A stretch of 64,000 nucleotides of DNA from a virus. The notes beneath the pieces are model-generated. The model was not told where the DNA came from and made no database searches. It saw only the letters and a program-made list of their open reading frames with translations. Positions 37,144-58,319 of the stretch are shown here, in pieces. The position numbers and the translations under genes were made by a program. Each line of letters starts with the position of its first letter. Position 1 is the first letter of the stretch. Where the stretch lies: the IMG/VR virus record IMGVR_UViG_3300046804_003503, positions 97,059-161,058 of that record; one strand, written 5' to 3'.

Positions 37144-37499
37144 TGGAGGCGAGGGGAGTCGAACCCCTGTCCTAACATATATCAAACTATATCTTCTACA
37201 AGTTTATTTTGTTCATAAGTTAAACAGAAGTATAGAACAAACAAGATTCTTTCTGTCTTACCAGCTTCTCTTAACCTACAACCCGCTGGGTATTGTAAGT
37301 GCAGAGGGATTTAACGACAGACTTTTGATCGCTACCCTCATTCGCAATCGCAGTCTGTTACTGCCCTTTTTTGTCAGGCAGCAAGTGCTAACTGAGTTTC
37401 GCCAGTTAAAGCGTTTTAATCGACTTTTAAAGTGGCCTGTCGATCAACCACTACTTGCTAATATAATCTTCTTTATGTAGTCGAAACCTTTACGCCCCC
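37144..37499 (-). ncRNA. ssrA: tmRNA (transfer-messenger RNA)
   Basis: The minus strand carries both ends of a tRNA-like fold. The 5' GGGGGCG pairs with 3' CGCCTCC (one G-U) and leaves discriminator A at 37144. A T-arm AGGGG-TTCGACT-CCCCT precedes it, and the 5' D-like part has GGTTTCGACT. CCA is not encoded. An internal reading frame at 37374-37415 encodes (N)ALTGETQLALAA and stops at TGA; the -LALAA end is the usual proteolysis tag. The RNA is 356 nt, like bacterial tmRNA. It may rescue stalled ribosomes and tag products during infection. Confidence 0.93.
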
Positions 37500-41959: not shown

Positions 41960-42153
41960 TTTGTTGGTTCCTCAACTATTATATCGTCAATGATGACTGA
42001 TAACTCTTCTAAATCTTCCTTACTAGCTCTTATTTCATATCTTTCATTGTTGTAATTAGTTAGTCTAATAAGATATGGATTATGCTTAAGATTCTCGTTA
42101 TGTAGAATCTCTATTATATCGTTATTCAATACTATGGTAGCTAATTTATTCAT
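41956..42153 (-). CDS. 65-aa hypothetical protein
   Basis: I chose the ATG at 42153 because longer reading would run into the tRNA-Ser gene. The product MNKLATIVLNNDIIEILHNE... is unrecognised. Confidence 0.68.
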   Translation of the reverse strand: MNKLATIVLNNDIIEILHNENLKHNPYLIRLTNYNNERYEIRASKEDLEELSVIIDDIIVEEPTK

Positions 42154-42160
42154 ATTTAAA

Positions 42161-42247
42161 CGGAATCTGAGGGATTCGAACCCCCGGAGGATTTTAACCC
42201 TCGGCGGTTTAGTAAACCGCTGCATTAGACCTCTCTGCCAAGATTCC
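42161..42247 (-). tRNA. tRNA-Ser, anticodon ACT
   Basis: The minus-strand RNA of 87 nt has a GGAATCT/AGATTCC acceptor, an anticodon arm GCGGT-TTACTAA-ACCGC, a long variable arm (GAGG/CCTC type) and a T-arm with GGTTCGAAT. The long arm supports Ser. The anticodon reads ACT (cognate codon AGU), where bacteria normally use GCT. CCA is not encoded. Confidence 0.88.
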
Positions 42248-42298
42248 TTGGGCGAGTTTTTGTTTTATAACAGAACCCGCTAAACTGTTAGACATAAA

Positions 42299-42523
42299 TC
42301 AGTTACAAGTATTGCAAGAATAACGAGCGGCTCGACGCTGCTTGGTATTCTGTACAACACGCTTCGTAACGCGAACTGGGGCTGTTACAACAGCCTCTGT
42401 GACGCGAACAACCGAACGTGCAGCATTACGAACTGGCTGGCGGCAGACTCCATTCTGGCAATCACCAGCAAAAGCAACTCCACCAACTAGTAGTGCGGCA
42501 ACAGTAAAAATAAAATTCTTCAT
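42299..42523 (-). CDS. small secreted Arg-rich protein
   Basis: The ATG at 42523 has AAGGA 6 nt upstream. The 74-aa protein has a signal peptide (MKNFIFTVAALLVGGVAFAG), then CQNGVCRQP, an Arg/Val-rich middle and a C-terminal SCNTCN. Codons are GC-richer than its neighbours. It may be acquired from a host gene. Function unknown. Confidence 0.72.
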   Translation of the reverse strand: MKNFIFTVAALLVGGVAFAGDCQNGVCRQPVRNAARSVVRVTEAVVTAPVRVTKRVVQNTKQRRAARYSCNTCN

Positions 42524-42553
42524 AAACATTCCTTTCAAATAAAAGTTACTAAC

Positions 42554-42934
42554 TTAACGATCAACCAACATTTCTTTATGCAATCCGCCATGTACTTCTC
42601 TATGACAATTTGCACAAAGTAATACGCATTTATCTAATTCTTCTATTATTTTTTCTTTGTTTTTATCCCAAGAGGTTCTTCCAAATTTACTAAATCCTAT
42701 ATCTTTCTTAGATGGATCTAAATGATGGAATTCTAATGCTCCCAAATATACTTTATATCCACATATTTTGCATTCACCGCCAGCATATTCAACGCATTGT
42801 TGTTTTAGTTTTCTTTGTCTTTTTATAACCTGTTCTTTATTACATTCTTTACAATATGATTGTATTTTTCCTTTCCTGCTTCCTGTTTTTACTTTATATG
42901 GTCTATCATTAATACCGCATTTAGTACATTTCAT
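42554..42934 (-). CDS. HNH endonuclease with N-terminal zinc ribbon
   Basis: This 126-aa protein has CTKCGIND...YCKECN at the start, then GECKICGY...LEFHHLDPSKKDIGFS and CVLLCANCHREVHGGL. It resembles the plus-strand HNH protein at 52288-52758, and both lie beside tRNA genes. Confidence 0.87.
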   Translation of the reverse strand: MKCTKCGINDRPYKVKTGSRKGKIQSYCKECNKEQVIKRQRKLKQQCVEYAGGECKICGYKVYLGALEFHHLDPSKKDIGFSKFGRTSWDKNKEKIIEELDKCVLLCANCHREVHGGLHKEMLVDR

Positions 42935-42994
42935 GTATATATCTCCTTGGATAGAATCTAATGTTCTATCCAGATATACACATTATTGTTTAAG

Positions 42995-43068
42995 TACCCC
43001 AAACAGGACTCCAACCTGTAACCTAATCATTAGAAGTGATTTGCTCTATGCAATTGAGCTATTGGGGC
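42995..43068 (-). tRNA. tRNA-Arg, anticodon TCT
   Basis: This 74-nt RNA has a GCCCCAA/TTGGGGT acceptor, anticodon arm AATCA-CTTCTAA-TGATT and T-arm ACAGG-TTGGAGT-CCTGT. It reads AGA codons, which suit AT-rich phage genes. CCA is not encoded. Confidence 0.9.
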
Positions 43069-43086
43069 AAATTTAATTCATCTTTG

Positions 43087-43251
43087 TCATTTAACCCATT
43101 CAAAATAACCGTAGTTCATAGCATCTTCTATGGTGCTATCTGGATTAGCTTTCATATATTGTAATGCATACAGTACAACTTCTGCGGTCAAGCCATATTT
43201 ACTAGCATCTTCAATATAAGCTCCAACAACATCAAGTGGATGAGGAGTCAT
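43087..43251 (-). CDS. 54-aa hypothetical protein
   Basis: The product MTPHPLDVVGAYIEDASKYG... ends YGYFEWVK. It overlaps the next gene by 20 nt. Confidence 0.65.
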   Translation of the reverse strand: MTPHPLDVVGAYIEDASKYGLTAEVVLYALQYMKANPDSTIEDAMNYGYFEWVK

Positions 43252-43414
43252 TTAGCAATTCCTTAATTGTTTGAGTAATGTTAACACCATCTACTATAAG
43301 ATCAAGTGGGCCAGTGTGATGTTCATATGGATTTTTAGTGGGACTATACTTTTCCACATAATCCATAGCCCTACTGTAACACCAACTTACTGCGAATCTT
43401 TCTTCTTTAGTCAT
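43232..43414 (-). CDS. hypothetical small protein
   Basis: This 60-aa protein (AVSWCYSRAMDYVEKYSPTK) is unrecognised. It has an ATGA overlap with the next gene. Confidence 0.65.
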   Translation of the reverse strand: MTKEERFAVSWCYSRAMDYVEKYSPTKNPYEHHTGPLDLIVDGVNITQTIKELLNDSSST

Positions 43415-43683
43415 ACAAACTTCAAGTCTCTAGGATGATCTTCGGTTGCTTCGCTAATAGATGGAAGATAGTAGTGTTCATAAACCTCTTTCCATGTTGG
43501 TAAATCATAAAAAGGATCGCCCTTATTCACACACAATCCGCTCTTATCATAAAGATCATAATAATCTACATTACGATTATCATAATCCTCTAGACTTTCA
43601 TAACAAGCAAATACATTATAAGTTCCATAAGGAACAGACGGATCATAAATATAAGATGCAACTTGTTCAGTTATTGTTGTCAT
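43411..43683 (-). CDS. hypothetical protein, paralogue of 61076-61288
   Basis: This 90-aa protein has FACYESLEDYDNRNVDYYDL and CVNKGDPFYDLPTWKEVYEH. It matches the 61076-61288 product across about 55 residues. It is presumably an early protein of unknown function, duplicated within the genome. Confidence 0.75.
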   Translation of the reverse strand: MTTITEQVASYIYDPSVPYGTYNVFACYESLEDYDNRNVDYYDLYDKSGLCVNKGDPFYDLPTWKEVYEHYYLPSISEATEDHPRDLKFV

Positions 43684-43864
43684 TTGGATTCCTAAATTTA
43701 ATAGTAATCTTATCTATATTATTTCGCAACTTCATCAAATCAACTAAAGACAAATACTTCACAGTTTTGTAATGTTCAAAATGTATGTTATCTTTTGTTC
43801 GCTCAAATTCTATACGATAAGTTAGTCCACCATCGTCTGTATAGATTACTGGATTAATCATCAC
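43667..43864 (-). CDS. hypothetical small protein
   Basis: This 65-aa protein (YRIEFERTKDNIHFEHYKTV) is unrecognised. It overlaps neighbours by 17 and 4 nt. Confidence 0.65.
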   Translation of the reverse strand: MMINPVIYTDDGGLTYRIEFERTKDNIHFEHYKTVKYLSLVDLMKLRNNIDKITIKFRNPNDNNN

Positions 43865-44286
43865 AAAACTTCCCAGTTTTTCTCTATAATACCAGCAATA
43901 GTTTTAAACTTTCGTCCGGTATCATTTAGATCAGCAAGACTTTCTCTTATTTTTTCTACCTCATAATCACCAAACCAAGTTATTCCTGTATAGAATTCAC
44001 CCATACTATTTTTCATTCCTGCCCATTTCCTAACCTCCACAGGCAAATCATCTAATTTGTTTCCAAATTTTGTACACCCATTAGGAAAATCCTTATTATA
44101 GATCTTTTCTGGCAGAGTCTTTTTCTTACTCTTTTTCATTTCCTGATTATACAATTCACAAAGAACGCCCAAACAACAATGCTGTGCGTTTCCCTTGCTA
44201 TCATATTGCTTGAGAGTTCCCTTACCCTGCTTATATTTGCCGCTCCTAAGAGCCTTGACCCATTGTTTCATAATATTCTGTTTCAT
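43861..44286 (-). CDS. phage hypothetical protein (WVKALRSGKYKQG family type)
   Basis: This 141-aa protein has WVKALRSGKYKQGKGTL, HCCLGVLCELYNQ and SLADLNDTGRKFKTIAGII. These blocks recur in many phage proteins of unknown function. No catalytic site can be named. Confidence 0.78.
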   Translation of the reverse strand: MKQNIMKQWVKALRSGKYKQGKGTLKQYDSKGNAQHCCLGVLCELYNQEMKKSKKKTLPEKIYNKDFPNGCTKFGNKLDDLPVEVRKWAGMKNSMGEFYTGITWFGDYEVEKIRESLADLNDTGRKFKTIAGIIEKNWEVL

Positions 44287-44498
44287 TTGCTATCCTCTGC
44301 AAAACTGTTGTCAAAACTCTGAAAAAGACCATCAACATCTTCGATAGAAAATGTCTTGTCATTTGGCAAACCGAAATCTTGACGAGTTTTCATTCTGTTG
44401 TGCAAAGTTTCCAACGCATCCAGAATAATTTCCATATCATGCTTTTCAATATAGTAATTCATACTTATATTCCAAGGGTATTTGTAAGCGTGTACCAT
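44283..44498 (-). CDS. hypothetical small protein
   Basis: This 71-aa protein is the first gene after the promoter at 44505-44532. It is unrecognised. Confidence 0.7.
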   Translation of the reverse strand: MVHAYKYPWNISMNYYIEKHDMEIILDALETLHNRMKTRQDFGLPNDKTFSIEDVDGLFQSFDNSFAEDSK

Positions 44499-44504
44499 AG
44501 TGGT

Positions 44505-44532
44505 ATTCTACCATGTTATCGGTAGTTGTCAA
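44505..44532 (-). promoter_or_regulatory. sigma70-type promoter
   Basis: TTGACA, 16-nt spacer with CCGATA and TGG end, TAGAAT on the minus strand, directly before the 44283-44498 gene. Confidence 0.85.
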
Positions 44533-44544
44533 CTGTCGCTTGAG

Positions 44545-44772
44545 TTAAAATCCAAAAGGCCCGGTATTTCTTATTACTTGATACATTTGTACTGTAACGT
44601 GTTCTACATCATTAATAGTTTCTGGTGATAAATGATCATTCAGATAATAAGATTCTTCACCAATATCAGTAAGGTGAGTTGGTGAATTTATATCATTAGT
44701 ATTCTCCCAAAAACTTAGTTGTTTCAGAAAAAATTTAATAATTGCTCTTTGTTTTTCGTTAGGTTTATTCAT
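44545..44772 (-). CDS. hypothetical small protein
   Basis: This 75-aa protein (EKQRAIIKFFLKQLSFWENT) is unrecognised. It lies just upstream of the 44505 promoter. Confidence 0.68.
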   Translation of the reverse strand: MNKPNEKQRAIIKFFLKQLSFWENTNDINSPTHLTDIGEESYYLNDHLSPETINDVEHVTVQMYQVIRNTGPFGF

Positions 44773-44786
44773 GTCTACTAACTCCT

Positions 44787-45068
44787 TTAAGACTCCAATC
44801 TGAAATTTTCTGGAAAGTCTATCTTATCACACAGATGAGGAAAAATCAAGTCGTGATCCGCATAGCCATCCAAACTATCTCCGATTGCTTCACTATAATT
44901 ATAGTCTATACAATCATTATCCATCCATTCTTTTTCACTATTTGCCACAACATAACTCAACACACCATGACGATAGCGAATATAAAGCCACTTATCATCA
45001 CTTGTTATTGCTTCTAGTTGGTATGGACAAGCCCCACCATAACTTAGTAGTCTTTTAATTTTGATCAT
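44787..45068 (-). CDS. hypothetical protein
   Basis: This 93-aa protein has DDKWLYIRYRHGVLSYVVAN and an acidic middle. It is unrecognised and overlaps the next gene at ATGA. Confidence 0.72.
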   Translation of the reverse strand: MIKIKRLLSYGGACPYQLEAITSDDKWLYIRYRHGVLSYVVANSEKEWMDNDCIDYNYSEAIGDSLDGYADHDLIFPHLCDKIDFPENFRLES

Positions 45069-45232
45069 TTTGGTTTCTCAATAAGTTCAACTTTGCTTCC
45101 ATCCTTAAAAGAGATCTCATACCATTCTCGCCAAGGAGAATCAAAACCAGTATTAAATATATGATGTATAGCGATGATTGGACAAGTTCTTTTGCCCATG
45201 CGACCAAATAGATAGTTAATTAGGGTTTCCAT
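45065..45232 (-). CDS. 55-aa hypothetical protein
   Basis: METLINYLFGRMGKRTCPII then WREWYEISFKDGSKVELIEK. It overlaps the 45216-45422 gene by 17 nt. Confidence 0.68.
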   Translation of the reverse strand: METLINYLFGRMGKRTCPIIAIHHIFNTGFDSPWREWYEISFKDGSKVELIEKPK

Positions 45233-45422
45233 TAGTTATTGTCCTTATTTTGTTTATTAGTCTTATTGTATAAGATTCTCTAATTGTCAGATAGACGTAA
45301 GTTACAACACAACATCCTAGCAAAATTAAACCGATCATACGCTCAATAAAAGGCCAGATAGGCTCATTATTAAAACTATCGCCAATCTGATATAGTGTGA
45401 TTATAAGTTCGTTAGAACTCAT
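45216..45422 (-). CDS. small membrane protein, paralogue of 46023-46232
   Basis: This 68-aa protein starts MSSNELIITLYQIGDSF and has a span (MIGLILLGCCVVTYVYLTI). It is clearly related to the protein at 46023-46232, a local duplication. Confidence 0.72.
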   Translation of the reverse strand: MSSNELIITLYQIGDSFNNEPIWPFIERMIGLILLGCCVVTYVYLTIRESYTIRLINKIRTITNGNPN

Positions 45423-45529
45423 TATTTATTCTCCAAAATTAGAACTATATTAGTTAACAGTATAATAATTGATACTAAACACGATATCAATAGATAATAT
45501 CTAAAATTGCTCACTGGTTGATTTTCCAT
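45422..45529 (-). CDS. 35-aa membrane peptide
   Basis: This peptide has one span (YYLLISCLVSIIILLTNIVL) and ends LENK. TAATG overlaps on both sides and the shared junction motif support translation. Confidence 0.6.
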   Translation of the reverse strand: MENQPVSNFRYYLLISCLVSIIILLTNIVLILENK

Positions 45530-45702
45530 TAGTTATTATCCCTATAAATAAGACACAAAAAACCTAATATAATAATCCATCCCATATTAGGAGGAAAACT
45601 ATATTGTGCTTTATCTTTATCCATAAGGTTCATTATTGTTCCCAGTAACACACTGAAATAAAAACTAAAATGAACAAAACTAAATGTTAAAGAGTTTTTC
45701 AT
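45529..45702 (-). CDS. 57-aa membrane protein
   Basis: Two hydrophobic segments (TFSFVHFSFYFSVLLGTIM and WIIILGFLCLIY). It ends DNN at the shared junction and overlaps by TAATG. Confidence 0.62.
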   Translation of the reverse strand: MKNSLTFSFVHFSFYFSVLLGTIMNLMDKDKAQYSFPPNMGWIIILGFLCLIYRDNN

Positions 45703-45851
45703 TAGTCCTCCGTAGCATCATCAATATACCAAATATGACCATAATCTTCACCAAATTCGGTCAAGTCCATTTCCAAACACTCAACAATATTATCTGCTTC
45801 TTCACTATCTGGATCAACACCCGGATAATCAATCACAACATGAACTTTCAT
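45702..45851 (-). CDS. 49-aa acidic protein
   Basis: MKVHVVIDYPGVDPDSEEAD ... ends YIDDATED. TAATG overlap to the 45529-45702 gene. Confidence 0.65.
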   Translation of the reverse strand: MKVHVVIDYPGVDPDSEEADNIVECLEMDLTEFGEDYGHIWYIDDATED

Positions 45852-46048
45852 TATTCATTCTCCCTATACAAAGGATAATCCTGTTCATTCTTTAGTAGAT
45901 TTTCGGCCAATTCCAATATTTGTCGCTCACTCCAACCAGCCCAATAGCCCCTCATATAAATTTGGGTCAGTTCATTCTTAGGAGTATTTTCATAAAACTT
46001 TTGAACAGATTCTATCCAAGTTTTAGTGGCTTGTTGTAGGGGATTCAT
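45851..46048 (-). CDS. hypothetical small protein
   Basis: This 65-aa protein has IYMRGYWAGWSERQILELAE. The GYWAGW-like element recurs in the 49644-49853 product (GHWAGWRYIKGG). Function unknown. Confidence 0.68.
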   Translation of the reverse strand: MNPLQQATKTWIESVQKFYENTPKNELTQIYMRGYWAGWSERQILELAENLLKNEQDYPLYRENE

Positions 46049-46232
46049 TAGTTATCCTTTTAAGAATTTTCCTTAGTATGTATGCTTCCCAAAGATCAAG
46101 AACAATATAACAAATAACAAAAACACCAAGAATAATAAGACTACCAATTAGCCTAATAGTAGGCCACAAACTAGTTTCTTTAAAACTATCGCTGATTTGA
46201 TATAGGGTTTTTATAAGTTCGTCAGAACTCAT
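46023..46232 (-). CDS. small membrane protein, paralogue of 45216-45422
   Basis: This 69-aa protein starts MSSDELIKTLYQISDSF and has a span (IGSLIILGVFVICYIVLDL). Its start lies on an exact junction motif. Its C-terminus reads through another junction motif in a different frame. Confidence 0.72.
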   Translation of the reverse strand: MSSDELIKTLYQISDSFKETSLWPTIRLIGSLIILGVFVICYIVLDLWEAYILRKILKRITNESPTTSH

Positions 46233-46558
46233 TAGTTATTCTCCAAATCTAATGATAGGTTATTTTGTTTAACAATCTCTTTTATTCTATCCAATTCATC
46301 TCTAGTAGCGGTTAATTCATTTTCAGCCGCCCAATATTTGTCATAATAAGACTGAGCCTTAACTACCTCGTTTACGGAAGGGCTAATCCACGGAACAGCA
46401 GACGCATAAGCGTCCAGCGTTCTTACGAGAAGGCGAGCCAACACCCAATCGGGCGTGTTACTAAACCTCTCCATACTGTGTTTGTTAATAAGGTCGCACA
46501 ACTCCTTCTCAAACGAAGCCGGTTGCTCAATAACTTGTTCATCTACAAAATTACTCAT
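46232..46558 (-). CDS. hypothetical protein
   Basis: This 108-aa helical protein has WVLARLLVRTLDAYASAVPW and ends DLENN at the junction motif. Codon use is slightly GC-richer in the middle. It is unrecognised. Confidence 0.72.
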   Translation of the reverse strand: MSNFVDEQVIEQPASFEKELCDLINKHSMERFSNTPDWVLARLLVRTLDAYASAVPWISPSVNEVVKAQSYYDKYWAAENELTATRDELDRIKEIVKQNNLSLDLENN

Positions 46559-46561
46559 TAG

Positions 46562-46714
46562 TTATTCTCCAAACATTTCATTACATAAAAATCCTAACAA
46601 AAATCCACTAGACAACATACCGATTAGAGGATCATCCCATACTAACATAGAACATATAAATATAGTGGCACTAGAATATGCTATTACTAGTTTATGTGTT
46701 GTGGTCATATTCAT
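46562..46714 (-). CDS. 50-aa membrane protein
   Basis: MNMTTTHKLVIAYSSATIFI ... GMLSSGFLLGFLCNEMFGE: two spans. It ends at GGAGAATAA, immediately before the junction-motif ATG at 46558. Confidence 0.6.
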   Translation of the reverse strand: MNMTTTHKLVIAYSSATIFICSMLVWDDPLIGMLSSGFLLGFLCNEMFGE

Positions 46715-46720
46715 GACAAA

Positions 46721-46936
46721 TTATTCTGCTAAATATTTTAGTGGTGCTGGCACACTGGTGGTTTCTACTATAATATCGTTATTGTGATCTTTTTGCAATT
46801 TTCCATCACTAGTTAACACGCACCTAATGATGGCTCCTGACTCGGTATCTGCCATAATCAAATATTTTAATTCTATTCCATTAGCATCAAAAATTCTATA
46901 TTTATGATGATCTTTGTTATTAGAGTCTAGTATCAT
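46721..46936 (-). CDS. hypothetical small protein
   Basis: This 71-aa protein (HHKYRIFDANGIELKYLIMA ... SVPAPLKYLAE) is unrecognised. Confidence 0.68.
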   Translation of the reverse strand: MILDSNNKDHHKYRIFDANGIELKYLIMADTESGAIIRCVLTSDGKLQKDHNNDIIVETTSVPAPLKYLAE

Positions 46937-46959
46937 TGGTATTTCCTTATAAATCTAAA

Positions 46960-47033
46960 TCTAGATGGAGGGATTTGAACCCTCAGCCTCTTGCTCCCAA
47001 AGCAAGCGTTCTGCCAAGTTGAACTACACCTAG
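46960..47033 (-). tRNA. tRNA-Pro, anticodon TGG
   Basis: This 74-nt RNA has a CTAGGTG/CATCTAG acceptor, anticodon arm CTTGC-TTTGGGA-GCAAG and T-arm GAGGG-TTCAAAT-CCCTC. It reads CCA and other CCN codons. CCA is not encoded. Confidence 0.92.
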
Positions 47034-47141
47034 TTGGTGGAGTCTTTTTTCTACTTTGTAGAATGATTTATCTGCGGGGAACTCCAGTCCACAGTTTAGT
47101 AAGAATGATTACCTACGCTTCCTTCAATTTTGTATTAGGTC

Positions 47142-47169
47142 ATCATAACACACTATCGTCATTTGTCAA
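47142..47169 (-). promoter_or_regulatory. sigma70-type promoter for tRNA-Pro region
   Basis: TTGACA, 16-nt spacer with CGATA, TATGAT on the minus strand, about 110 nt before the tRNA-Pro 5' end. A TTCTAC-AAA-GTAGAA hairpin lies between them. Confidence 0.78.
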
Positions 47170-47194
47170 GTGTAGACTTTAGAGGATTTCCCGA

Positions 47195-47365
47195 TTAGTT
47201 ATTCTCCAAATATTGAAGGATAAAATCGGCTAACTCCCTTAGTTCATACCTATTCACTGAAGGATAAACCAAACTACTAGCAAGACCAATCCTAATAGTA
47301 TCCTTCTCATCAAATAGATGAAAGATAAAAGTGTCGCCTTTGTAACTTTGATAAGTTTCATTCAT
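47195..47365 (-). CDS. 56-aa hypothetical protein
   Basis: MNETYQSYKGDTFIFHLFDE ... ends QYLENN. It overlaps the 47365 gene by TAATG. The junction motif after its stop is followed by ATC instead of ATG, so the next coupled gene has been lost. Confidence 0.65.
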   Translation of the reverse strand: MNETYQSYKGDTFIFHLFDEKDTIRIGLASSLVYPSVNRYELRELADFILQYLENN

Positions 47366-47658
47366 TAGTTATTCTCCACTAAAGGTTCAATTTCAACAAG
47401 CCAACCAACAGGAGCCAAATGACTGTTCCATCGTCCTGTCCATTTTCCATTATATTTTTCTGCTTCGAAAAACTTTGAATGCCCTCCATTGGTGGAATTA
47501 ACCATAGGTTGTTCCGTACTTTCTATAATAAAAGTTTTGTGAACAACTCCGTCTGGTCTAGTTAATTTAACAGAATATTTGTATAATTTTTGGTTTGGAT
47601 TTGGACTATTGCATCCAATAAAACAAAAAACCAATAATAATAAAATTTTGTATTTCAT
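47365..47658 (-). CDS. putative lipoprotein
   Basis: This 97-aa protein starts MKYKILLLLVFCFIGC, with lipobox FIGC. The mature part is beta-rich with TRPDGVVHKTFIIES. It is possibly an outer-membrane or periplasm-facing superinfection factor; this is inference. Confidence 0.72.
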   Translation of the reverse strand: MKYKILLLLVFCFIGCNSPNPNQKLYKYSVKLTRPDGVVHKTFIIESTEQPMVNSTNGGHSKFFEAEKYNGKWTGRWNSHLAPVGWLVEIEPLVENN

Positions 47659-47858
47659 TAGTTATTCTCCGCTACTTTTTTAGCCATTTTATGAATTGTT
47701 TTTCTATCGTTGGATAGGACATTATTCCATTCTAAGTATTTTGCATACAGCTTATAAAATTCTACAATATTATCTTCTGATGCTAGTTGTTTTAATTTAG
47801 TCCAATAGTTTCTTTCTTGGTCAACTCTGCCAGATTGTGCATAATAGTATTCATCCAT
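47658..47858 (-). CDS. hypothetical small protein
   Basis: This 66-aa helical protein (QERNYWTKLKQLASEDNIVE) ends KVAENN at the junction motif. Confidence 0.68.
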   Translation of the reverse strand: MDEYYYAQSGRVDQERNYWTKLKQLASEDNIVEFYKLYAKYLEWNNVLSNDRKTIHKMAKKVAENN

Positions 47859-47882
47859 AGTTAGTTGATCTGAAAATTTACA

Positions 47883-48098
47883 CTATTCCTTAAACCAACT
47901 CTTTTGTGATTCTGTGGGATTATCATACAATGCGTTTTGTCTTTGTCTTTCCTCTTGCTCAAACGGATGATGATAAATTCCCCACCCCATACGATCATAC
48001 AACTCTTGCATATTGTTGTCAAGATCACAGAGACTTTCATCTAGACTTTTAGGAACCATCCAATCGAATAAACTAAAGAAACCTGTCCAGAAACTCAT
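47883..48098 (-). CDS. hypothetical small protein
   Basis: This 71-aa protein starts MSFWTGFFSLFDWMVPKSLD and is acidic and Gln-rich at its C-terminus. It is unrecognised. Confidence 0.68.
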   Translation of the reverse strand: MSFWTGFFSLFDWMVPKSLDESLCDLDNNMQELYDRMGWGIYHHPFEQEERQRQNALYDNPTESQKSWFKE

Positions 48099-48118
48099 TA
48101 TTTATTCTCCAAATTTAA

Positions 48119-48204
48119 GGGCGAATGGATGGAGTTGAACCATCAATACTGATCACATTATTCGATTGTGTGAAAATTGTTTTTCCAATTAAACTACATT
48201 CGCC
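48119..48204 (-). tRNA. atypical tRNA or tRNA-like gene, anticodon uncertain
   Basis: The acceptor pairs for 8 bp (GGCGAATG/CATTCGCC), the T-arm is perfect (GATGG-TTCAACT-CCATC) and the D-arm has GTTT...TTGG...AAAC. The middle does not fold as a normal anticodon arm. The best fit is CAATT-TTCACAC-AATCG with one mismatch (anticodon CAC, Val), but this leaves an 18-nt variable region. An alternative TCACA/TGTGA stem has an 11-nt loop. It may be a degenerate or specialised tRNA. It has its own promoter at 48222-48250. Confidence 0.65.
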
Positions 48205-48221
48205 ACCGCATTTACTCAGTA

Positions 48222-48250
48222 AGTATACATCTAACATCGGCAGTTGTCAA
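48222..48250 (-). promoter_or_regulatory. sigma70-type promoter for the atypical tRNA
   Basis: TTGACA, 17-nt spacer with CCGAT, TATACT on the minus strand; the -10 ends 18 nt before the tRNA 5' end. Confidence 0.85.
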
Positions 48251-48259
48251 TAGCAGACT

Positions 48260-48466
48260 TTAGCCGATTTTCTCATTTAAATAGTGAGTAATTAACTCTA
48301 TGGCCTCAGTAAGAGTTTGATTTTCACTACTTCTTTTATTCATAGTAAACATAGATTGACCACAAGGGCCAGTACAATTTGCTTTTCTTAGTTCTTCTAA
48401 TCTAATAACAAGAGGTTTTTTAAGCCATTCTTGTGGATTATTATACATTGTAACTTTATCTTTCAT
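48260..48466 (-). CDS. hypothetical small protein
   Basis: This 68-aa protein has EELRKANCTGPCGQSMFTMN and a helical end. It overlaps the HAD gene at ATGA. Confidence 0.68.
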   Translation of the reverse strand: MKDKVTMYNNPQEWLKKPLVIRLEELRKANCTGPCGQSMFTMNKRSSENQTLTEAIELITHYLNEKIG

Positions 48467-48984
48467 TTGTTCTCCAAATCCTCAAGATTTTTAATATATC
48501 CAACTAACTCTGGTATTGTATTAAGATAGCCATGTCTAATAATTGCACTACGCATATTAATATTTCTGGCTCCTTCAATATCTCCAAATTTAGGATTAGC
48601 AGTTACCATTAGTGTTTCTAATGGTTTAAAGTTTGTATCTTTTTCTATAGTTTTATAAGCATCAAAATGTGGCTTGTAGACTTTATGCTTGTTCAAGTCC
48701 ACAATATGATCCCAATAGATATTATTAGATTCTGATACTCTTTTGATTAGATCATATGACCCATTACTTAGTGCTACACAAAAATAACCGTGTTCTTGTA
48801 ACAGTTTAATACCTTCCGCACTGTCAGGGTGACTTTTTAAGTTATACCAACTATTGGGAAAGGAGTAAGGCGAATAATCTTGCTTAATTATATGATTAAT
48901 ATATTTACATATTTCATTGTTTGATATATCTTTCATATCAAATACTGTACCAAAACAATCAAATGCTACACATTTTATGCTCAT
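48463..48984 (-). CDS. HAD-superfamily phosphatase/hydrolase
   Basis: This 173-aa protein has AFDCFGTVFDM (nucleophile Asp), FCVALSNGSYDL (motif II), YKPHFDAYK (motif III Lys) and VTANPKFGDIEGAR (motif IV), with a small helical cap. It could dephosphorylate nucleotides or sugars; the substrate is unknown. Confidence 0.85.
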   Translation of the reverse strand: MSIKCVAFDCFGTVFDMKDISNNEICKYINHIIKQDYSPYSFPNSWYNLKSHPDSAEGIKLLQEHGYFCVALSNGSYDLIKRVSESNNIYWDHIVDLNKHKVYKPHFDAYKTIEKDTNFKPLETLMVTANPKFGDIEGARNINMRSAIIRHGYLNTIPELVGYIKNLEDLENK

Positions 48985-49017
48985 AATTTATATTCTTATT
49001 CTTATTCCTTAAAATAT

Positions 49018-49323
49018 TTAATTTATTACCAGACTAGCAAGTTCAACTGCTCGTTGACTCTTATCGTCACCATAATATACAGTCGCTTTGCCAGTACGTC
49101 TAATATTTCTCAGATTAGTTATCATTTCTCTAGCATATTTGTCATCATCTCGCCAATCCGGCCAAAGAATATCTTGATATCGTTCCACAAATAATGCAAC
49201 GTCATTACCATTTCCAGTAACAGTAACATACGGCGAGTGAGGAAAATTAAATACCAAACCTTCAGCATTTACCGTACTGTTAAAACTCAAAACTGTCATG
49301 ATTATAGCAAAAAAATATTTCAT
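49018..49323 (-). CDS. small exported protein
   Basis: The ATG at 49323 has AAGGAG 7 nt upstream. The 101-aa protein has a signal peptide (MKYFFAIIMTVLSFNSTVNA) and a short globular mature part. It is unrecognised. Confidence 0.72.
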   Translation of the reverse strand: MKYFFAIIMTVLSFNSTVNAEGLVFNFPHSPYVTVTGNGNDVALFVERYQDILWPDWRDDDKYAREMITNLRNIRRTGKATVYYGDDKSQRAVELASLVIN

Positions 49324-49393
49324 TTTGTTCTCCTTATTTGATTGTTGCTGCAAAGTATCTGAAACCTGGTATCCACGATATAATACACACCAC

Positions 49394-49522
49394 TTAGACT
49401 ATTCGTATATGGTTAATCAACCAAACAATAACTTCTATCGTTTTCCATATTCCCATGATAGAAAATACTGTCATAACTAAGAGTGCTGGTATTAGTCCTT
49501 TTAGGTCAAAATTAAAATACAT
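49394..49522 (-). CDS. 42-aa membrane peptide
   Basis: MYFNFDLKGLIPALLVMTVF followed by WKTIEVIVWLINHIRIV. TAATG overlap with the previous gene. Confidence 0.58.
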   Translation of the reverse strand: MYFNFDLKGLIPALLVMTVFSIMGIWKTIEVIVWLINHIRIV

Positions 49523-49644
49523 TAATTCTTCTCCAAATATTCACATATCATACTGCTCAAACCTATTGGCCCAATTACTACAAAAAACAAAAATCCCAAA
49601 ATCAATAGTGAGTATACTATAATATCCTCTTTAGTTAGTTTCAT
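49522..49644 (-). CDS. 40-aa membrane peptide
   Basis: One span (YSLLILGFLFFVVIGPIGLS), ending YLEKN. It starts on an exact junction motif at 49642-49656. Confidence 0.6.
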   Translation of the reverse strand: MKLTKEDIIVYSLLILGFLFFVVIGPIGLSSMICEYLEKN

Positions 49645-49853
49645 TAGTTATTCTCCAAACCACCTTTGATATAACGCCATCCAGCCCAATGACCATCCCA
49701 ACCATTTTGGGCATCATAACCCTCTCTGGCGGCATCAGTGCCAATAATCTTGGCAATCTCATTAGGCTCTAAGCCTTTTGCTCTTAGTTTATTATAGAGT
49801 TCAATATTAGCCTTCTTTTTGAACTCTTCTTCATTTTCTGTAAAAATTCCCAT
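49644..49853 (-). CDS. hypothetical small protein
   Basis: This 69-aa protein has LEPNEIAKIIGTDAAREGYD and GWDGHWAGWRYIKGGLENN. The end matches the junction motif. Confidence 0.68.
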   Translation of the reverse strand: MGIFTENEEEFKKKANIELYNKLRAKGLEPNEIAKIIGTDAAREGYDAQNGWDGHWAGWRYIKGGLENN

Positions 49854-49928
49854 TAGTTATTCTTATGAAAAGTTTTTTTTAGAAGATTAAAGTAATTCGC
49901 ATCGAACAAGTCATTATTAATATCAGAC

Positions 49929-50180
49929 TTAATTACCTAGTTCTTGACATATAAACTCGTACACGCTTAGTCCCTCATAACTACTTTCAGGATATTCTCC
50001 CTCCATAAGATCATACTTCATTATTAAATTTTTAAGTTCTTCTAGCGAGATGTTCATTGTTTTATTCTCTGATTTAGTAGCAATTTTTCTCAATCTATGA
50101 ATAAAATCTACATTAGGATTTTCTCCATAAACATCAACTAGTCGGTCAATTAACCATTCTAGAAATTCTGTATCTGTCAT
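49929..50180 (-). CDS. hypothetical protein
   Basis: This 83-aa acidic helical protein (MTDTEFLEWLIDRLVDVYGE) is unrecognised. It starts on an exact junction motif. Confidence 0.7.
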   Translation of the reverse strand: MTDTEFLEWLIDRLVDVYGENPNVDFIHRLRKIATKSENKTMNISLEELKNLIMKYDLMEGEYPESSYEGLSVYEFICQELGN

Positions 50181-50197
50181 TAGTTATTCTCCAAATA

Positions 50198-50416
50198 TTA
50201 GGTATTAAATTCGTTATTTTGATCATTAACGTATGTTAAAGAGTCAATCAGAAATTTAATAGAATCTTGTCTAGTCAATCCTATTTGGGCCAAAAACTTA
50301 CCAAATTCATGACCACATAAATGATTCATAAGACGATTATAGTTGTGATCATTCAAATTTTGCTGATCGTCGTTATACACAAAAATTTCAGTTTTTTCAA
50401 TCCAGTAATTAGTCAT
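50198..50416 (-). CDS. hypothetical protein
   Basis: This 72-aa protein (NRLMNHLCGHEFGKFLAQIG) is unrecognised. It starts on an exact junction motif. Confidence 0.68.
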   Translation of the reverse strand: MTNYWIEKTEIFVYNDDQQNLNDHNYNRLMNHLCGHEFGKFLAQIGLTRQDSIKFLIDSLTYVNDQNNEFNT

Positions 50417-50428
50417 TAGTTATTCTCC

Positions 50429-50752
50429 TCAAAATTCTTCCCAAGAGTTTTCTTTGTTCTTGAAAAAGATCCAATTTTGGTAATATTCTGACCCAAAATC
50501 AACTCCAGCCTCATTCCAAGCGTTAAAAGATCGCCCCTGACAAATATCCACAACAAACTCCTTGTTTGAATCCATAGTCAGATTATCTGGAATCTCAAAA
50601 TCTTCTATCTCAAAACCGGGAGCGGTAATGTTATCAATATTGTCAAAAACATATTCGCCCAATTGAACATCAAGATCCCTATCATCTTCATCATTGGTTA
50701 TGTTCCAACAATTTGGGACTTCGTAAAAAGTAACCAAACGAATTTTAACCAT
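50429..50752 (-). CDS. hypothetical protein
   Basis: This 107-aa acidic protein (DRDLDVQLGEYVFDNIDNIT...) is unrecognised. It starts on an exact junction motif, overlapping the previous stop as TAATG. Confidence 0.72.
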   Translation of the reverse strand: MVKIRLVTFYEVPNCWNITNDEDDRDLDVQLGEYVFDNIDNITAPGFEIEDFEIPDNLTMDSNKEFVVDICQGRSFNAWNEAGVDFGSEYYQNWIFFKNKENSWEEF

Positions 50753-51015
50753 TAGTTATTCTCCAAATTATCAAACAAAGAACTTCTGTCAGAGTAAATT
50801 CTGACCAGTTTATGAACTTGATAGTTTTCTGGTTCGTAATCGCTAGTCCAATAAAACTCTCCATCGTCATCTGTAAAATATCCTACTTCCTCAACATCTG
50901 TAATTGATCTTGCAGCATCGTCGCAGCCATTCTTATCAAAGAATACCTGAACATTTCCACCAAGTTTATCACGCAGAGCGGTCAATTCATTAATCATTTC
51001 ATTAAGAGTTTTCAT
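50752..51015 (-). CDS. hypothetical protein
   Basis: This 87-aa protein (LNEMINELTALRDKLGGNVQ ... YFTDDDGEFYWTSDYE) ends NLENN at the junction motif. It is of a kind seen in other phages, function unknown. Confidence 0.72.
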   Translation of the reverse strand: MKTLNEMINELTALRDKLGGNVQVFFDKNGCDDAARSITDVEEVGYFTDDDGEFYWTSDYEPENYQVHKLVRIYSDRSSLFDNLENN

Positions 51016-51034
51016 CAGTTATTCTCCAAGTAGT

Positions 51035-52129
51035 TTAACCAACGCAAAATTCATCACTGAGTTTAGCAGCAAGATCTTTTGCCGAAGCAGAAAGAAACTT
51101 ATTATTACTGAAAAACAATGGTGTAGAAACTTGATTGAGAAAATCCACAACAGTTGAAAGCAAACGAAGTTGAGCTTCATTTGGTATGCACTTATTGCTG
51201 AATATTGGATTGGTATCCTCATCTTCATCAATATCTGCCTCGTTGTAATCTGGAATATCATCATCCTCGTTAAGAACCAATACAGCGTTAGCGTCTTGCT
51301 TAACCAGTTTGTTAAGTATGCTGGTAGCGGCGTCAACTGTCAATGGCACAGAATTGGCATCGGCTTTCTTAGACGCTTCACGCCAAGACTCATACCAAGC
51401 ATCGCTGCTCTTTGCGGACTGAACATGAATCTGTGCTGATTGACCAGTAAGAGCCTCTTGAAGTTGTACAATACTAACCTTCTTACCGCTGCAACCTTCA
51501 AGAAGCGTAGAAAAATATGACTTCTTACCCTCCCAAGGCTTACGCCACCAAGTATAAGGAACGCGAAAGATTTGATTAATCTTCATGGCACGAATATCAG
51601 CATTAAAATAATTGGCAAGCTTCTTCTGAATGCCTGTCCAATACTTTTTGTTTTTCGTAAGTCCAAGTTGATGATCCTTATCACAAAGAACCCAATAAAC
51701 TTGATAACCATTTCGTGTATCGACAACCCATGTTGGCTCGACGGCAAAACTGTTGATCATGTTAAGGAACTGCTTCTTCTTTTCCTTGACAATCTTAGGA
51801 GAAAAATAATGTCCATTGTTGTCTCGACCAGCATCAAGATCAATGTAGCAAGCACGAACAGACTTTATATCATCCTTCTTGCGTAATCCATTGATATAGA
51901 AATAAGCATCAGAACTGTTTTTGATGTTATTGTCTATAACTTCGCTAATCATAGTAGTATGATTCATACCACTGAGTTTCTTACGTGGATTATTATTATA
52001 GCAAAGTATATGACCACCGCCAAATGAATCCAAGAATCGGTTTCTCATATTCACATAACCGCTCCTGTTAACATCATTCTGTGTGCTTTTATCATCAAAT
52101 GGATTAAAACTAAGTTCAAGCTTGAGCAT
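51035..52129 (-). CDS. archaeo-eukaryotic-type primase (AEP/RepB-like)
   Basis: This 364-aa protein has VRACYIDLDAGRD near residue 90 (metal DxD), WVVDTRNGYQVYWVL near 134 (second AEP block) and QIFRVPYTWWRKP near 185, the usual order of small prim-pol or replication-initiator primases. The C-terminal 150 aa are acidic and unrecognised. No helicase part follows. It is the second primase in the window, next to the DnaG-type one. Codons are GC-richer than its neighbours. Confidence 0.75.
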   Translation of the reverse strand: MLKLELSFNPFDDKSTQNDVNRSGYVNMRNRFLDSFGGGHILCYNNNPRKKLSGMNHTTMISEVIDNNIKNSSDAYFYINGLRKKDDIKSVRACYIDLDAGRDNNGHYFSPKIVKEKKKQFLNMINSFAVEPTWVVDTRNGYQVYWVLCDKDHQLGLTKNKKYWTGIQKKLANYFNADIRAMKINQIFRVPYTWWRKPWEGKKSYFSTLLEGCSGKKVSIVQLQEALTGQSAQIHVQSAKSSDAWYESWREASKKADANSVPLTVDAATSILNKLVKQDANAVLVLNEDDDIPDYNEADIDEDEDTNPIFSNKCIPNEAQLRLLSTVVDFLNQVSTPLFFSNNKFLSASAKDLAAKLSDEFCVG

Positions 52130-52193
52130 AATTTACTCCTTAAAGGTAATTTTTGAATTTTGTTGTTGTTACTTAAAACGTTTTGGTGTATAA

Positions 52194-52276
52194 TCTCACG
52201 GGTGGGAGTCGAACCCACATGACTAATAGTCGAGACATTTTAAGTGTCTTGCGTATACCAATTTCGCCACCGTGAG
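52194..52276 (-). tRNA. tRNA-Leu, anticodon TAA
   Basis: This 83-nt RNA has a CTCACGG/CCGTGAG acceptor, anticodon arm AGACA-CTTAAAA-TGTCT, a class II variable arm and a GTGGG-TTCGACT-CCCAC T-arm. It reads UUA, the main Leu codon of AT-rich genes. CCA is not encoded. Confidence 0.93.
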
Positions 52277-52287
52277 GAGTGTTATCT

Positions 52288-52758
52288 ATGTATCATACCA
52301 AAGTTTGCGGCACTTGTCAAGAGGAAAAAAATGTGTCTGAATTTGGATTTAAGGACAAACAAAGAGGAAAATTGCAATCTAGATGTAAAAAATGTCAATC
52401 TGAATGTTCTAAAAAACATTATCTTTCAAATAAAGATGATTATCGCAAACGTGCTAGAAAAAATAATGTACTATATCGTGAGCGTAATCGTCAATTTGTA
52501 TCTGAGTATAAATCTGAAAAAGGCTGTCATTTTTGTCAAGAAAATACTCCAGTTTGTTTAGATTTTCATCATTTAGATCCAAACGAAAAAGAAATCAACA
52601 TTTCTATAATGTCTAAGGGTGCAAACTCTATAGAAACAATTATGAAAGAAATTGATAAATGTCTAGTAATTTGTTCAAATTGTCATAGAAAGTTACACGC
52701 GGGACTGATAGAAGTGAGTATACCACTGTCATCGGTTCTTGTCAAGCCACTTCTTTAG
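52288..52758 (+). CDS. HNH endonuclease with zinc ribbon, plus strand
   Basis: The ATG at 52288 has GAGGAG 7 nt upstream; a GTG at 52279 is in frame. The 156-aa protein has KVCGTCQEEK...RCKKCQSECSKKHY, then KGCHFCQENTPVCLDFHHLDPNEKEINIS and CLVICSNCHRKLHAGL. Its ribosome site overlaps the antisense of the tRNA-Leu 5' end, and its first codons overlie a minus-strand promoter. Its 3' end overlaps the convergent 52729-53022 gene. Confidence 0.87.
   Translation: MYHTKVCGTCQEEKNVSEFGFKDKQRGKLQSRCKKCQSECSKKHYLSNKDDYRKRARKNNVLYRERNRQFVSEYKSEKGCHFCQENTPVCLDFHHLDPNEKEINISIMSKGANSIETIMKEIDKCLVICSNCHRKLHAGLIEVSIPLSSVLVKPLL
52292..52320 (-). promoter_or_regulatory. sigma70-type promoter for tRNA-Leu
   Basis: TTGACA, 17-nt spacer ending TGG, TATGAT on the minus strand; the -10 is 16 nt before the tRNA 5' end. 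It lies inside the HNH coding sequence on the other strand. Confidence 0.85.
52717..52745 (-). promoter_or_regulatory. second sigma70-type promoter at the far side of the HNH gene
   Basis: TTGACA, 17-nt spacer with CCGAT and TGG end, TATACT on the minus strand. It points through the HNH gene towards tRNA-Leu and may be the tRNA promoter that existed before the insertion. Confidence 0.75.
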
Positions 52759-53022
52759 TTCTTCTCTGTTGGCATATAATGGAATTAATCTTTCTTCATC
52801 AAAACGATTATAATGCAATGTAAGATTATATATGTCTCCACGTTCATTTATACTGGCCCATGCAACATTGTAGAATGGCAATTCAGCATTAGATCGCAGT
52901 TTTTTAAGTTCATCTTTGGCATTGTTGACTGTAAATTGATCAGCACCGCTTGCCCAAGCAAACTCAATTAAAAACTCAATAGGATTAGATACTTTATCCA
53001 TTTTTATTTTTACATCCTTCAC
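52729..53022 (-). CDS. hypothetical protein
   Basis: This 97-aa protein (NPIEFLIEFAWASGADQFTV ... EELKKWLDKNR) is unrecognised. It overlaps the next gene by 29 nt. Confidence 0.72.
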   Translation of the reverse strand: MKDVKIKMDKVSNPIEFLIEFAWASGADQFTVNNAKDELKKLRSNAELPFYNVAWASINERGDIYNLTLHYNRFDEERLIPLYANREELKKWLDKNR

Positions 53023-53425
53023 AAAGAGTTGTTATCCATCCACCCTTATTCGGGCTTCCGCGTTCACCGCAAACTTCACAAATTTTGTAACTAAATCCTT
53101 CTGCCATACTAACTAAACCCTTAACATAATCATCGCCACCACTAAGATATACGCGAAGACCACCAAACTTTTCTTTTATTTGATCAAACTTTACTGGAAT
53201 ATAATTAGATATATAATCTGGATTCGTTTGTTGTTTCCATTTTGTTTGACCTATAATGTTGTCTTCGTGTTGTTTTATGTACCAACATAGGTTGGATATA
53301 ATATCAAACCAACCATTTCCGCATTCACAACCCCATGCCATACAACTTTGCATAATCCCCTTGTCTTTATTACTAAAGAATTGGGGATACTTTTCGTAAA
53401 GTTTATCTTCTAGTTCTTGATCCAT
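52994..53425 (-). CDS. hypothetical protein with Cys clusters
   Basis: The ATG at 53425 follows the upstream stop; a TTG 12 nt earlier also exists. The 143-aa protein has GWFDIISNLCWYIKQ, IKEKFGGLRVYLSGGDDYV and CEVCGERGSPNKG...CEGC, a zinc site. It resembles phage proteins of unknown function. Confidence 0.75.
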   Translation of the reverse strand: MDQELEDKLYEKYPQFFSNKDKGIMQSCMAWGCECGNGWFDIISNLCWYIKQHEDNIIGQTKWKQQTNPDYISNYIPVKFDQIKEKFGGLRVYLSGGDDYVKGLVSMAEGFSYKICEVCGERGSPNKGGWITTLCEGCKNKNG

Positions 53426-53427
53426 AA

Positions 53428-53757
53428 TTAATACCAAACAGTTTTATCTTCATCGGGGTAATTATACTTAGAAAATACATCCTTAATATATCTATCGCAA
53501 GTATCGCAGTCATTTATAGAATTTGTATCATCATCTTCATTGTGAAGATCAGAATATTCATCAAGTTTGAATACTTGTAGGAATGTGTCCCAAGCGACAT
53601 TATACCTAGCCTCATGAAGAATAGCAAGCCCATGAAGGGCAGCAAATGCATCATCTCTGTCTAGTGTACCATCAATAATTTGACCAGCAATAGTCTTAAT
53701 ATCGTCGCTAATCTTATTTAGATTTGTAAGTTCATTCTCCATGTCGAATCGGTCCAT
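53428..53757 (-). CDS. hypothetical protein
   Basis: This 109-aa acidic protein (AALHGLAILHEARYNVAWDT; CDTCD) is unrecognised. AGAGGA lies 5 nt before the ATG. Confidence 0.72.
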   Translation of the reverse strand: MDRFDMENELTNLNKISDDIKTIAGQIIDGTLDRDDAFAALHGLAILHEARYNVAWDTFLQVFKLDEYSDLHNEDDDTNSINDCDTCDRYIKDVFSKYNYPDEDKTVWY

Positions 53758-53950
53758 GTTGTCCTCTTTCTATTTCTTCTATTAAAGTCTTGTATAGTAA
53801 ATCTGTCAAATCATCTTGTCTAATTAACTGAGGATAATGTTCTCGTATAGTGTCAGAATAATCACCGTCAATCACATATTTATTTGATGGACTGTAATCA
53901 ACAGTCGGTATTGTGGAACTGATGATTATTGCTGACGCTAACTTTATCAT
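53732..53950 (-). CDS. hypothetical small protein
   Basis: This 72-aa protein starts MIKLASAIIISSTIPTVDYS, a possible weak signal sequence. It is unrecognised. Confidence 0.65.
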   Translation of the reverse strand: MIKLASAIIISSTIPTVDYSPSNKYVIDGDYSDTIREHYPQLIRQDDLTDLLYKTLIEEIERGQHGPIRHGE

Positions 53951-54279
53951 ATATATCGTCTAGAATATTCGCCCTGTATGTCACTAATAAATTCTGGATC
54001 GTTGGTAACATCTGGACCGATTATATATTCCTGCGGAACGTGTTTATAAACTCCCTTTTGCTTGGCGTCTTCCCAATCAAGACAACCATACCTACTCCAG
54101 TATAGATACTTAAATCCTTCATAACTCTTAGTCTCCATTAACATTTTTTCTACAAGAATACAAAGCTTTTGCTTGGTAGACTGAGGAATTCGTGTAGAAA
54201 GCATATCATTGACAGTATTCTTGATATGCTCAAGAAACTCAATGGAAACCTGTTTACGCTTCTTATTTGCAATCTTCAT
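53947..54279 (-). CDS. hypothetical protein
   Basis: This 110-aa protein has FLEHIKNTVNDMLSTRIPQS and WSRYGCLDWEDAKQKGVYKH. It is unrecognised, with an ATGA overlap downstream. Confidence 0.72.
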   Translation of the reverse strand: MKIANKKRKQVSIEFLEHIKNTVNDMLSTRIPQSTKQKLCILVEKMLMETKSYEGFKYLYWSRYGCLDWEDAKQKGVYKHVPQEYIIGPDVTNDPEFISDIQGEYSRRYI

Positions 54280-58290: not shown

Positions 58291-58319
58291 AGTATACCAG
58301 AAGTATCGGCAAGTGTCAA
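58291..58319 (-). promoter_or_regulatory. consensus sigma70 promoter
   Basis: TTGACA, 17-nt spacer with CCGATA and TGG end, TATACT on the minus strand. It transcribes repeat copy 1 and the zinc-ribbon gene. Confidence 0.9.

Follow-up and report, generated by a model that had tools for sequence, protein, structure and literature searches.

A repeated stop-start connector between the small genes of a phage gene cluster and its candidate role in gene exchange

Results

The stretch of DNA analysed here (the window) comprises 64,000 bases of the IMG/VR virus record IMGVR_UViG_3300046804_003503, bases 97059–161058 of a record of 161,058 bases. On its minus strand, between 45230 and 51027, a run of small genes is interrupted by a short repeated sequence, GGAGAATAACTAATG, which we call the connector or motif: 17 copies stand at gene starts and one more is a relic (Table 1). 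The eight exact copies, the eight near copies and the relic without ATG that the initial annotation had reported are all present, and a further start copy at 45230–45244 had been overlooked. With up to three mismatches allowed, the window held 22 matches to GGAGAATAACTAATG, compared with a mean of 3.98 in shuffled sequence (standard deviation 1.80, maximum 11). Over the whole record, up to two mismatches gave 18 matches, all on the minus strand and 17 of them inside the 5.8-kb cluster, and the reversed pattern, used as a control, gave 0. Two statements of the initial annotation hold in part. The common protein end LENN does occur at connectors, but exact LENN was found only four times in the window, the relic included; other proteins end there in VENN, AENN, LEKN, RENE, RDNN or LENK. 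The TAATG stop-start overlap, described as usual, was seen at 9 of the 17 start copies and at the relic when upstream open reading frames (ORFs) of at least 30 codons were considered, which makes "usual" somewhat overstated. At connector 50416 a 32-codon ORF also stops, but within a longer gene that stops earlier.

We compared the connector across 27 sequences, the window stretch and 26 loci of other contigs (designated by L numbers), in which 1559 gene starts were called. These counts omit the near-identical contigs L040, L163, L170, L178 and L179 and the short L154; the L063/L064 comparison and the analysis of clean indels used all 33 sequences. The gene caller was home-made and mis-starts some genes (for example, 45955 for 46048), and a few called starts fall just past a connector, so that class counts are approximate. 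The connector was found with 0, 1 and 2 mismatches at 48, 38 and 19 starts, respectively (105 of 1559 at up to two mismatches), and with 3 mismatches at 16, and the remaining starts formed a separate hump peaking at 8. The unit conserved over the 105 copies is TTTGGAGAATAA(C/A)TAATG, which combines a ribosome site, stops in two frames and a start codon; GGAG lies at the ribosome-site position, as the initial annotation had proposed. Information content is high from −13 to the ATG and drops on both sides, to about 0.1–0.6 bits upstream of −13, and positions −8 to −1, past the Shine-Dalgarno sequence, are near-invariant except for −3, which is C or A. The readings GAA TAA and AAC TAA supply stops in two of the three frames. 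The upstream gene stops in the TAATG overlap at 54 of the 105 copies and three bases earlier at 19, and the spacing between neighbouring genes is −4 to +4 at 75. Upstream of about −15 the copies share no sequence, in a comparison that included no separate search for inverted repeats. The variant forms TGGAGAAAAATAATG and TGGAGAAAAGAAATG are also recurrent. A shared N-terminal leader, MTNELK, was considered as an extension of the connector and dropped, being mostly confined to two protein families.

Searches of IMG/VR for relatives yielded 5 loci with the conserved ORF that flanks the cluster, 75 with the gene for a UV-damage endonuclease-like protein (uvsE) and 13 with the cassette at 46048; a search with the 108-residue gene 46232–46558 found none. 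The exact 18-mer TTTGGAGAATAACTAATG occurs in 54 IMG/VR stretches, not all of them from relatives. All 24 of the 24 records checked carry connector copies with up to two mismatches, in most records clustered and on the same strand. Gene order varies among the relatives, in which single genes have moved and similarity ends at the motif. The cassette at 49644, 139 bases from motif to motif, was 92.8–94.2% identical in L157, L158, L163, L166 and L170, and the cassette at 46048 was 82–87% identical in the same five. In L095, a locus on the same contig as L170, the two cassettes were 92.8% and 86.8% identical and the uvsE region was 76.4% identical to the window; the single genes lie there among unrelated neighbours, and similarity stops at the motif. 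In L157 the homologue of gene 46714 precedes that of 49644, whereas in the window it follows. When both neighbours existed elsewhere, adjacency was retained at 13 of 62 motif junctions, 30 of 62 weak ones (3–4 mismatches) and 405 of 825 others. Among pairs of homologues at least 70% identical of which at least one had the motif, both had it in 5 of 6 pairs with the same upstream neighbour and, at the same identity, in 5 of 6 with the same downstream neighbour; close variants with a GGAGAA core were scored as absent in this count.

To locate breakpoints, we took the ends of homology blocks of at least 88% identity (unless another identity is given) and at least 80 bp, each counted once per sequence and 8-base bin. 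The related contigs are non-independent, and permutations were stratified by contig only. Of 554 block ends, 100 coincided with motif copies, compared with 0.9% expected by position. By junction class, a break was present at 41 of 105 motif junctions, 27 of 83 with another GGAGAA core, 9 of 108 with another GGAG, 21 of 108 with AGGA or GAGG, and 57 of 388 weak ones. In the same regions, GGAGAA-core junctions exceeded other Shine-Dalgarno junctions at 85% identity (78/188 vs 36/216), 88% (68/188 vs 30/216), 92% (59/188 vs 15/216) and 95% (49/188 vs 13/216), and none of 5000 within-contig permutations reached the excess at any of these thresholds. The excess persisted without the three contigs picked through cassette 46048 (47/162 vs 26/204; 0 of 5000 permutations). 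Because breaks at 88% identity favour GGAGAA-core junctions to this extent, preference for a ribosome site alone is insufficient to account for them.

Block ends were also frequent at tRNA genes (53 of 554, 4.4-fold over position; contigs such as L163, L170, L178 and L157), and a 583-base indel between L177 and L175 apparently terminates at the 3' end of a tRNA.

One exchange could be followed at the level of single bases. In the 2656 bases that lead up to the first connector copy, L063 and L064 are 99.9% identical, and in the 242 that come next they are 100% identical. Between copies 1 and 3, L064 carries a 12-codon ORF (MTNELKTTMENN) and one gene, both absent from L063. The L063 junction, TAAACTATTTGGAGAATAACTAATGAGTAATTAC, has the left flank of L064 copy 1 (TAAACTATTTGGAGAATAAATAATG) and the right half of copy 3 (AACTAATGAGTAATTAC); because the junction is hybrid in this way, the crossover is placed within the shared TTGGAGAATAA, inside the motif. 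L040 also has the short allele and L068 the start of the long one, so that two contigs of different datasets carry each allele. The 12-codon ORF (L064 2638–2690) lies between two connectors and ends in MENN; it is perhaps the scar of a deleted cassette.

Clean indels gave 61 pair rows, which reduce to 33 distinct joins. Six had connectors at both ends, with overlaps of 16, 16, 18, 21, 22 and 30 bases, and the short allele kept the connector in all six; another six had a connector at one end, with overlaps of −10 to 15. Connectors account for 233 of 893 starts in the indel regions, and by our own arithmetic about two double-connector joins would be expected if the ends were random starts. At joins with two connectors an overlap is a consequence of the shared sequence, and it does not in itself prove recombination.

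The surroundings of the cluster are listed in Table 1. Pfam was run on ten proteins, one of them the flanking ORF, and a single match, to a HAD-like hydrolase, was above the cut-off. The proteins of the window include ribonucleotide reductase subunits, a DnaB-like helicase, a UvsX/RecA-like protein, rIIA and PhoH, as well as the uvsE product, whose name comes from phage annotations at 26–33% identity. Among named phages, positions 42000–54000 gave no megablast match and the flanking ORF no tblastn match; uvsE, the UvsX/RecA-like protein and rIIA gave distant matches only, below 60% identity. A second repeated element, TTGACAA-N-TG-N-CGAT, resembles a promoter −35 region and has 14 matches at up to two mismatches, compared with 2.3 expected; two exact copies sit just before the tRNA-Pro and tRNA-Val genes within the cluster.

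Table 1. The connector copies and other features in and around the cluster (window coordinates).
Feature	Position	Strand	Remarks
Small-gene run	45065–51015	−	Genes adjacent to connectors or lying between them, most with no Pfam match
Conserved ORF flanking the cluster	51035–52129	−	PHROG of unknown function; protein 96–97% identical in four contigs
Connector copy GGAGAATAACTGATG	51013–51027	−	1 mismatch; start of gene 51015; shortly past stop of ORF 51035–52129; first copy in transcription order
Exact connector	50750–50764	−	TAATG overlap; upstream protein end LENN
Exact connector	50414–50428	−	Precedes gene 50416, whose L063 homologue directly follows the homologue of ORF 51035–52129
Exact connector	50178–50192	−	Precedes gene 50180; 3' boundary of cassette common to L063, L064 and L152
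Near copy TAAGAATAACTAATG	49851–49865	−	2 mismatches
Exact connector	49642–49656	−	Upstream protein end LENN; 5' boundary of 139-base cassette 49644
Near copy GGAGAAGAATTAATG	49520–49534	−	2 mismatches; 3' boundary of 139-base cassette 49644
Near copy GGAGAATAAATAATG	48096–48110	−	1 mismatch; after tRNA-Val
Exact connector	47656–47670	−	Upstream protein end AENN
Exact connector	47363–47377	−	Upstream protein end VENN
Relic GGAGAATAACTAATC	47193–47207	−	Ribosome site and stop retained, start codon lost; then promoter-like site and tRNA-Pro
Exact connector	46556–46570	−	Upstream ORF ends at first TAA within motif (second stop frame)
Exact connector	46230–46244	−	Upstream protein end LENN; start of paralogue 1 (gene 46232)
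Near copy AAAGGATAACTAATG	46046–46060	−	3 mismatches; 5' boundary of cassette 46048, present in 13 contig loci
Near copy GGAGAATGAATAATG	45849–45863	−	2 mismatches; 3' boundary of cassette 46048
Near copy GGATAATAACTAATG	45527–45541	−	1 mismatch
Near copy GGAGAATAAATAATG	45420–45434	−	1 mismatch; start of paralogue 2 (gene 45422)
Near copy GGACAATAACTAATG	45230–45244	−	1 mismatch
TTGACAA-N-TG-N-CGAT element	47155–47169, 48236–48250, 44518–44532, 58305–58319	−	Repeat search
HAD-like hydrolase	48463–48984		Pfam, above cut-off
HNH endonuclease (PF01844)	42554–42934	−	Beside the cluster
HNH-like protein	52279–52758	+	Strand opposite to neighbours; HNH-like by eye (CxxC...HHLDP...CxxCH); matched only Cas_TM1802, below cut-off
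Predicted transfer-messenger RNA (tmRNA) gene	37144–37499	−	Tag GETQLALAA

Discussion

On balance, the repeat is probably a coding stop-start connector and at the same time a point of exchange by short homology. In the transcript, the connector provides a ribosome site (GGAG), a two-frame stop for the upstream gene and a start for the downstream gene, and since the start usually lies near the stop or overlaps it, neighbouring small genes may be translationally linked. Many genes of the cluster have the same 15–18 bases at both ends, and a join between any two copies would yield one whole connector and a working operon; because of this, the genes between copies could be lost, gained or rearranged at no cost. 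Phage recombination or template switching may use the 11–20 bases of identity as a crossover point, and selection would afterwards retain the joins that still translate. We infer that recombination, over selection acting on random joins, is the likelier cause of the pattern; selection for exchangeability itself would be a further step. Joins occur elsewhere too, and the connector would then raise the rate of viable exchange, without having a monopoly on it.

Several results weigh against this interpretation. Block ends were also enriched 4.4-fold at other gene starts (201 of 554), and 21 of the 33 clean-indel joins had no connector at either end, with overlaps of −12 to 26 and a median of 0. 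When motif junctions were compared with tight non-motif junctions at 88% identity, the excess was 1.7-fold (28/75 vs 50/225) and was reached in 25 of 5000 permutations; without the contigs selected through 46048 and the matches to the 46048 family, it was not significant at 85% (20/64 vs 46/200; 321 of 5000). Tight non-motif junctions with a GGAGAA core broke more often still (13 of 27). For a test intended to be unbiased, contigs were retrieved through uvsE or the flanking ORF, and 57 of 78 sequences were retained once near-duplicates had been discarded. Breaks were present there at 19/91 motif vs 265/2369 other junctions at 85%, 6/91 vs 89/2369 at 90% and 0/91 vs 19/2369 at 95%, where the excess was absent; it was weak overall in this set, which has few motif copies near close relatives. 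In L063, the second junction is a connector followed by a gene that starts without a connector in both L064 and the window, and a join can therefore form without matching connectors on its two sides. Finally, when the upstream neighbour had changed, both phages had the motif in only 24 of 107 pairs (83 of 107 discordant), and when the downstream neighbour had changed, in only 22 of 106 (84 of 106 discordant). Because concordance is 5 of 6 with the same neighbour and so much lower with a different one, the connector belongs to the junction: it does not stay with the gene as a fixed signal, and exchange does not always restore it. The proposal of the initial annotation, interchangeable cassettes that recombine through the junction, is thus borne out in part: order is unconserved, breaks are enriched at the motif and one crossover lies inside it, but exchange does not require the motif.

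The alternative that deserves most attention, although we think it unlikely, is that the motif is a translation signal only, a preferred initiation region that is possibly bound by a phage regulator, and that random joins survive only at gene boundaries. The enrichment of breaks at ordinary starts, the majority of clean indels without a connector, the modest excess over tight non-motif junctions, and the position of the motif, with its GGAG, at the ribosome site are all consistent with this explanation. However, junctions with GGAG that is not part of GGAGAA broke least of all, though their Shine-Dalgarno sequence looks equally good, and the conserved positions reach past GGAG. Moreover, the motif is kept or lost with the neighbour and is not carried by the gene, and the L063/L064 crossover lies inside it. 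Remnants of tandemly duplicated and diverged genes seem a very improbable source of the repeats: the paralogues 46232 and 45422 do share 68 nucleotides at 88% identity, the motif plus the coding bases that follow, but they are the sole long pair, the other repeat families have little in common past the motif and the bases next to it, and over the 105 copies the information drops as soon as the motif ends.

A dedicated enzyme, either a site-specific recombinase or a homing nuclease that cuts or joins at the motif, would fit the single-gene cassettes in one orientation and the HNH protein near the cluster. We give this little credence, since the motif is short, asymmetric and tolerant of mismatches and of indels in its 3' half, and joins without it are common; none of the few nearby proteins scanned was recognised as a recombinase or nuclease specific to the motif. 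Least probable of all is that metagenome assemblers joined reads at the repeat. The record and its relatives are IMG/VR contigs, mostly metagenomic judging by their names, but both the long and the short allele of the L063/L064 event come from two contigs in different datasets, and the copies involved share 11 identical bases, which is below the usual word sizes of assemblers.

Beyond the stop-start connector with its probable role in exchange, a bolder and rather doubtful extension is that the window belongs to an uncultured clade of large phages with a shared assembly standard, in which a uniform connector is kept by selection on gene traffic and not on translation alone. If this were true, connector-bearing lineages would swap, drop and reorder single genes at a high rate while the operon stays intact.

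We found no description of this exact connector in the open-licence literature, and we judge it to be a variant of known phage boundary repeats, that is, start-associated sequences (SAS), the PeSLs of T4 and lambdoid boundary sequences. The SAS and ESAS of cluster K mycobacteriophages are, in the passages covered of the two papers, short asymmetric ribosome-site repeats with 11–19 copies per genome in one orientation, which lie in the non-structural region, are conserved beyond rRNA pairing and have unrelated genes attached; the SAS, GGGATAGGAGCCC, mostly precedes genes with more than 50 bp of intergenic space, and about half are accompanied by 17-bp inverted repeats (ESAS) (PMC3203893; PMC12699233). 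The same passages describe the function of start-associated sequences as unknown and claim no role in gene exchange. Like the cluster K SAS, the connector is a repeat that lies immediately 5' of start codons, is short and asymmetric, and keeps one orientation. Unlike it, the connector has the consensus given above, lies mostly in tight junctions and coincides with exchange breakpoints.

In the passages of its description covered here, the Felix O1-like phage Mordin has a SAS-like 26-bp repeat containing TGGAGAATCTA before the ATG (PMC4611695). The Mordin stretch contained 16 copies of the 13-base core of this repeat within two mismatches. As in the connector case, relatives of Mordin in the Ounavirinae gain and lose genes near the SAS-like repeats; for example, 1329 bases are absent between Sf14 and Sf16, with a 90-base overlap at the join. 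Across the Ounavirinae loci compared, L180–L190, SAS-like repeats were seen near gains and losses of single genes, with overlaps of roughly 90 bases at several joins. In contrast to the connector, the Ounavirinae overlap of about 90 bases is mostly intergenic DNA near the repeats, and gene order looked conserved in the fetched regions (by eye, without a count; L181 is unannotated), whereas it is permuted in the connector cluster.

The T4-type PeSLs are reportedly cassettes of promoter plus stem-loop between genes, in work attributed to Arbiol (2010) and Comeau (2014). The connector resembles them in coinciding with the shuffling of small genes. It differs in being 15–18 bases of ribosome site, stop and start, often within coding sequence, and the roughly 18 conserved bases, which end at the ATG, would be too few to accommodate an early promoter or a stem-loop common to the copies. 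The part of the T4-like literature covered here says of PeSLs that they are repeated elements between small genes and mediate modular shuffling (PMC4503421).

In lambdoid phages, according to the passages covered, short shared sequences at gene boundaries are proposed exchange points, and the small genes of the nin chain are closely packed, with stop and start codons that overlap as ATGA (PMC3029335; PMC8022706, citing Kroger and Hobom 1982). As at such boundaries, exchange endpoints lie at the connector, though not exclusively. Homologous recombination at the connector would be seen here through its end products, one of them a hybrid junction. The connector is uniform and longer than the nin overlaps, and gene order is permuted among the relatives. 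It is also unlike an integron-like or other site-specific site, given that most clean indels are without the motif and given the lack of a recombinase among the few nearby proteins scanned.

What the present case adds to these systems is a dense set of near-identical short junctions together with many natural relatives, so that connector joins can be compared with other joins in one region: connector joins keep the connector and overlap by 16–30 bases, whereas joins elsewhere mostly have little overlap or none. The cluster also provides a naturally occurring operon in which one common plug joins the parts, and it suggests a testable role for start-associated sequences.

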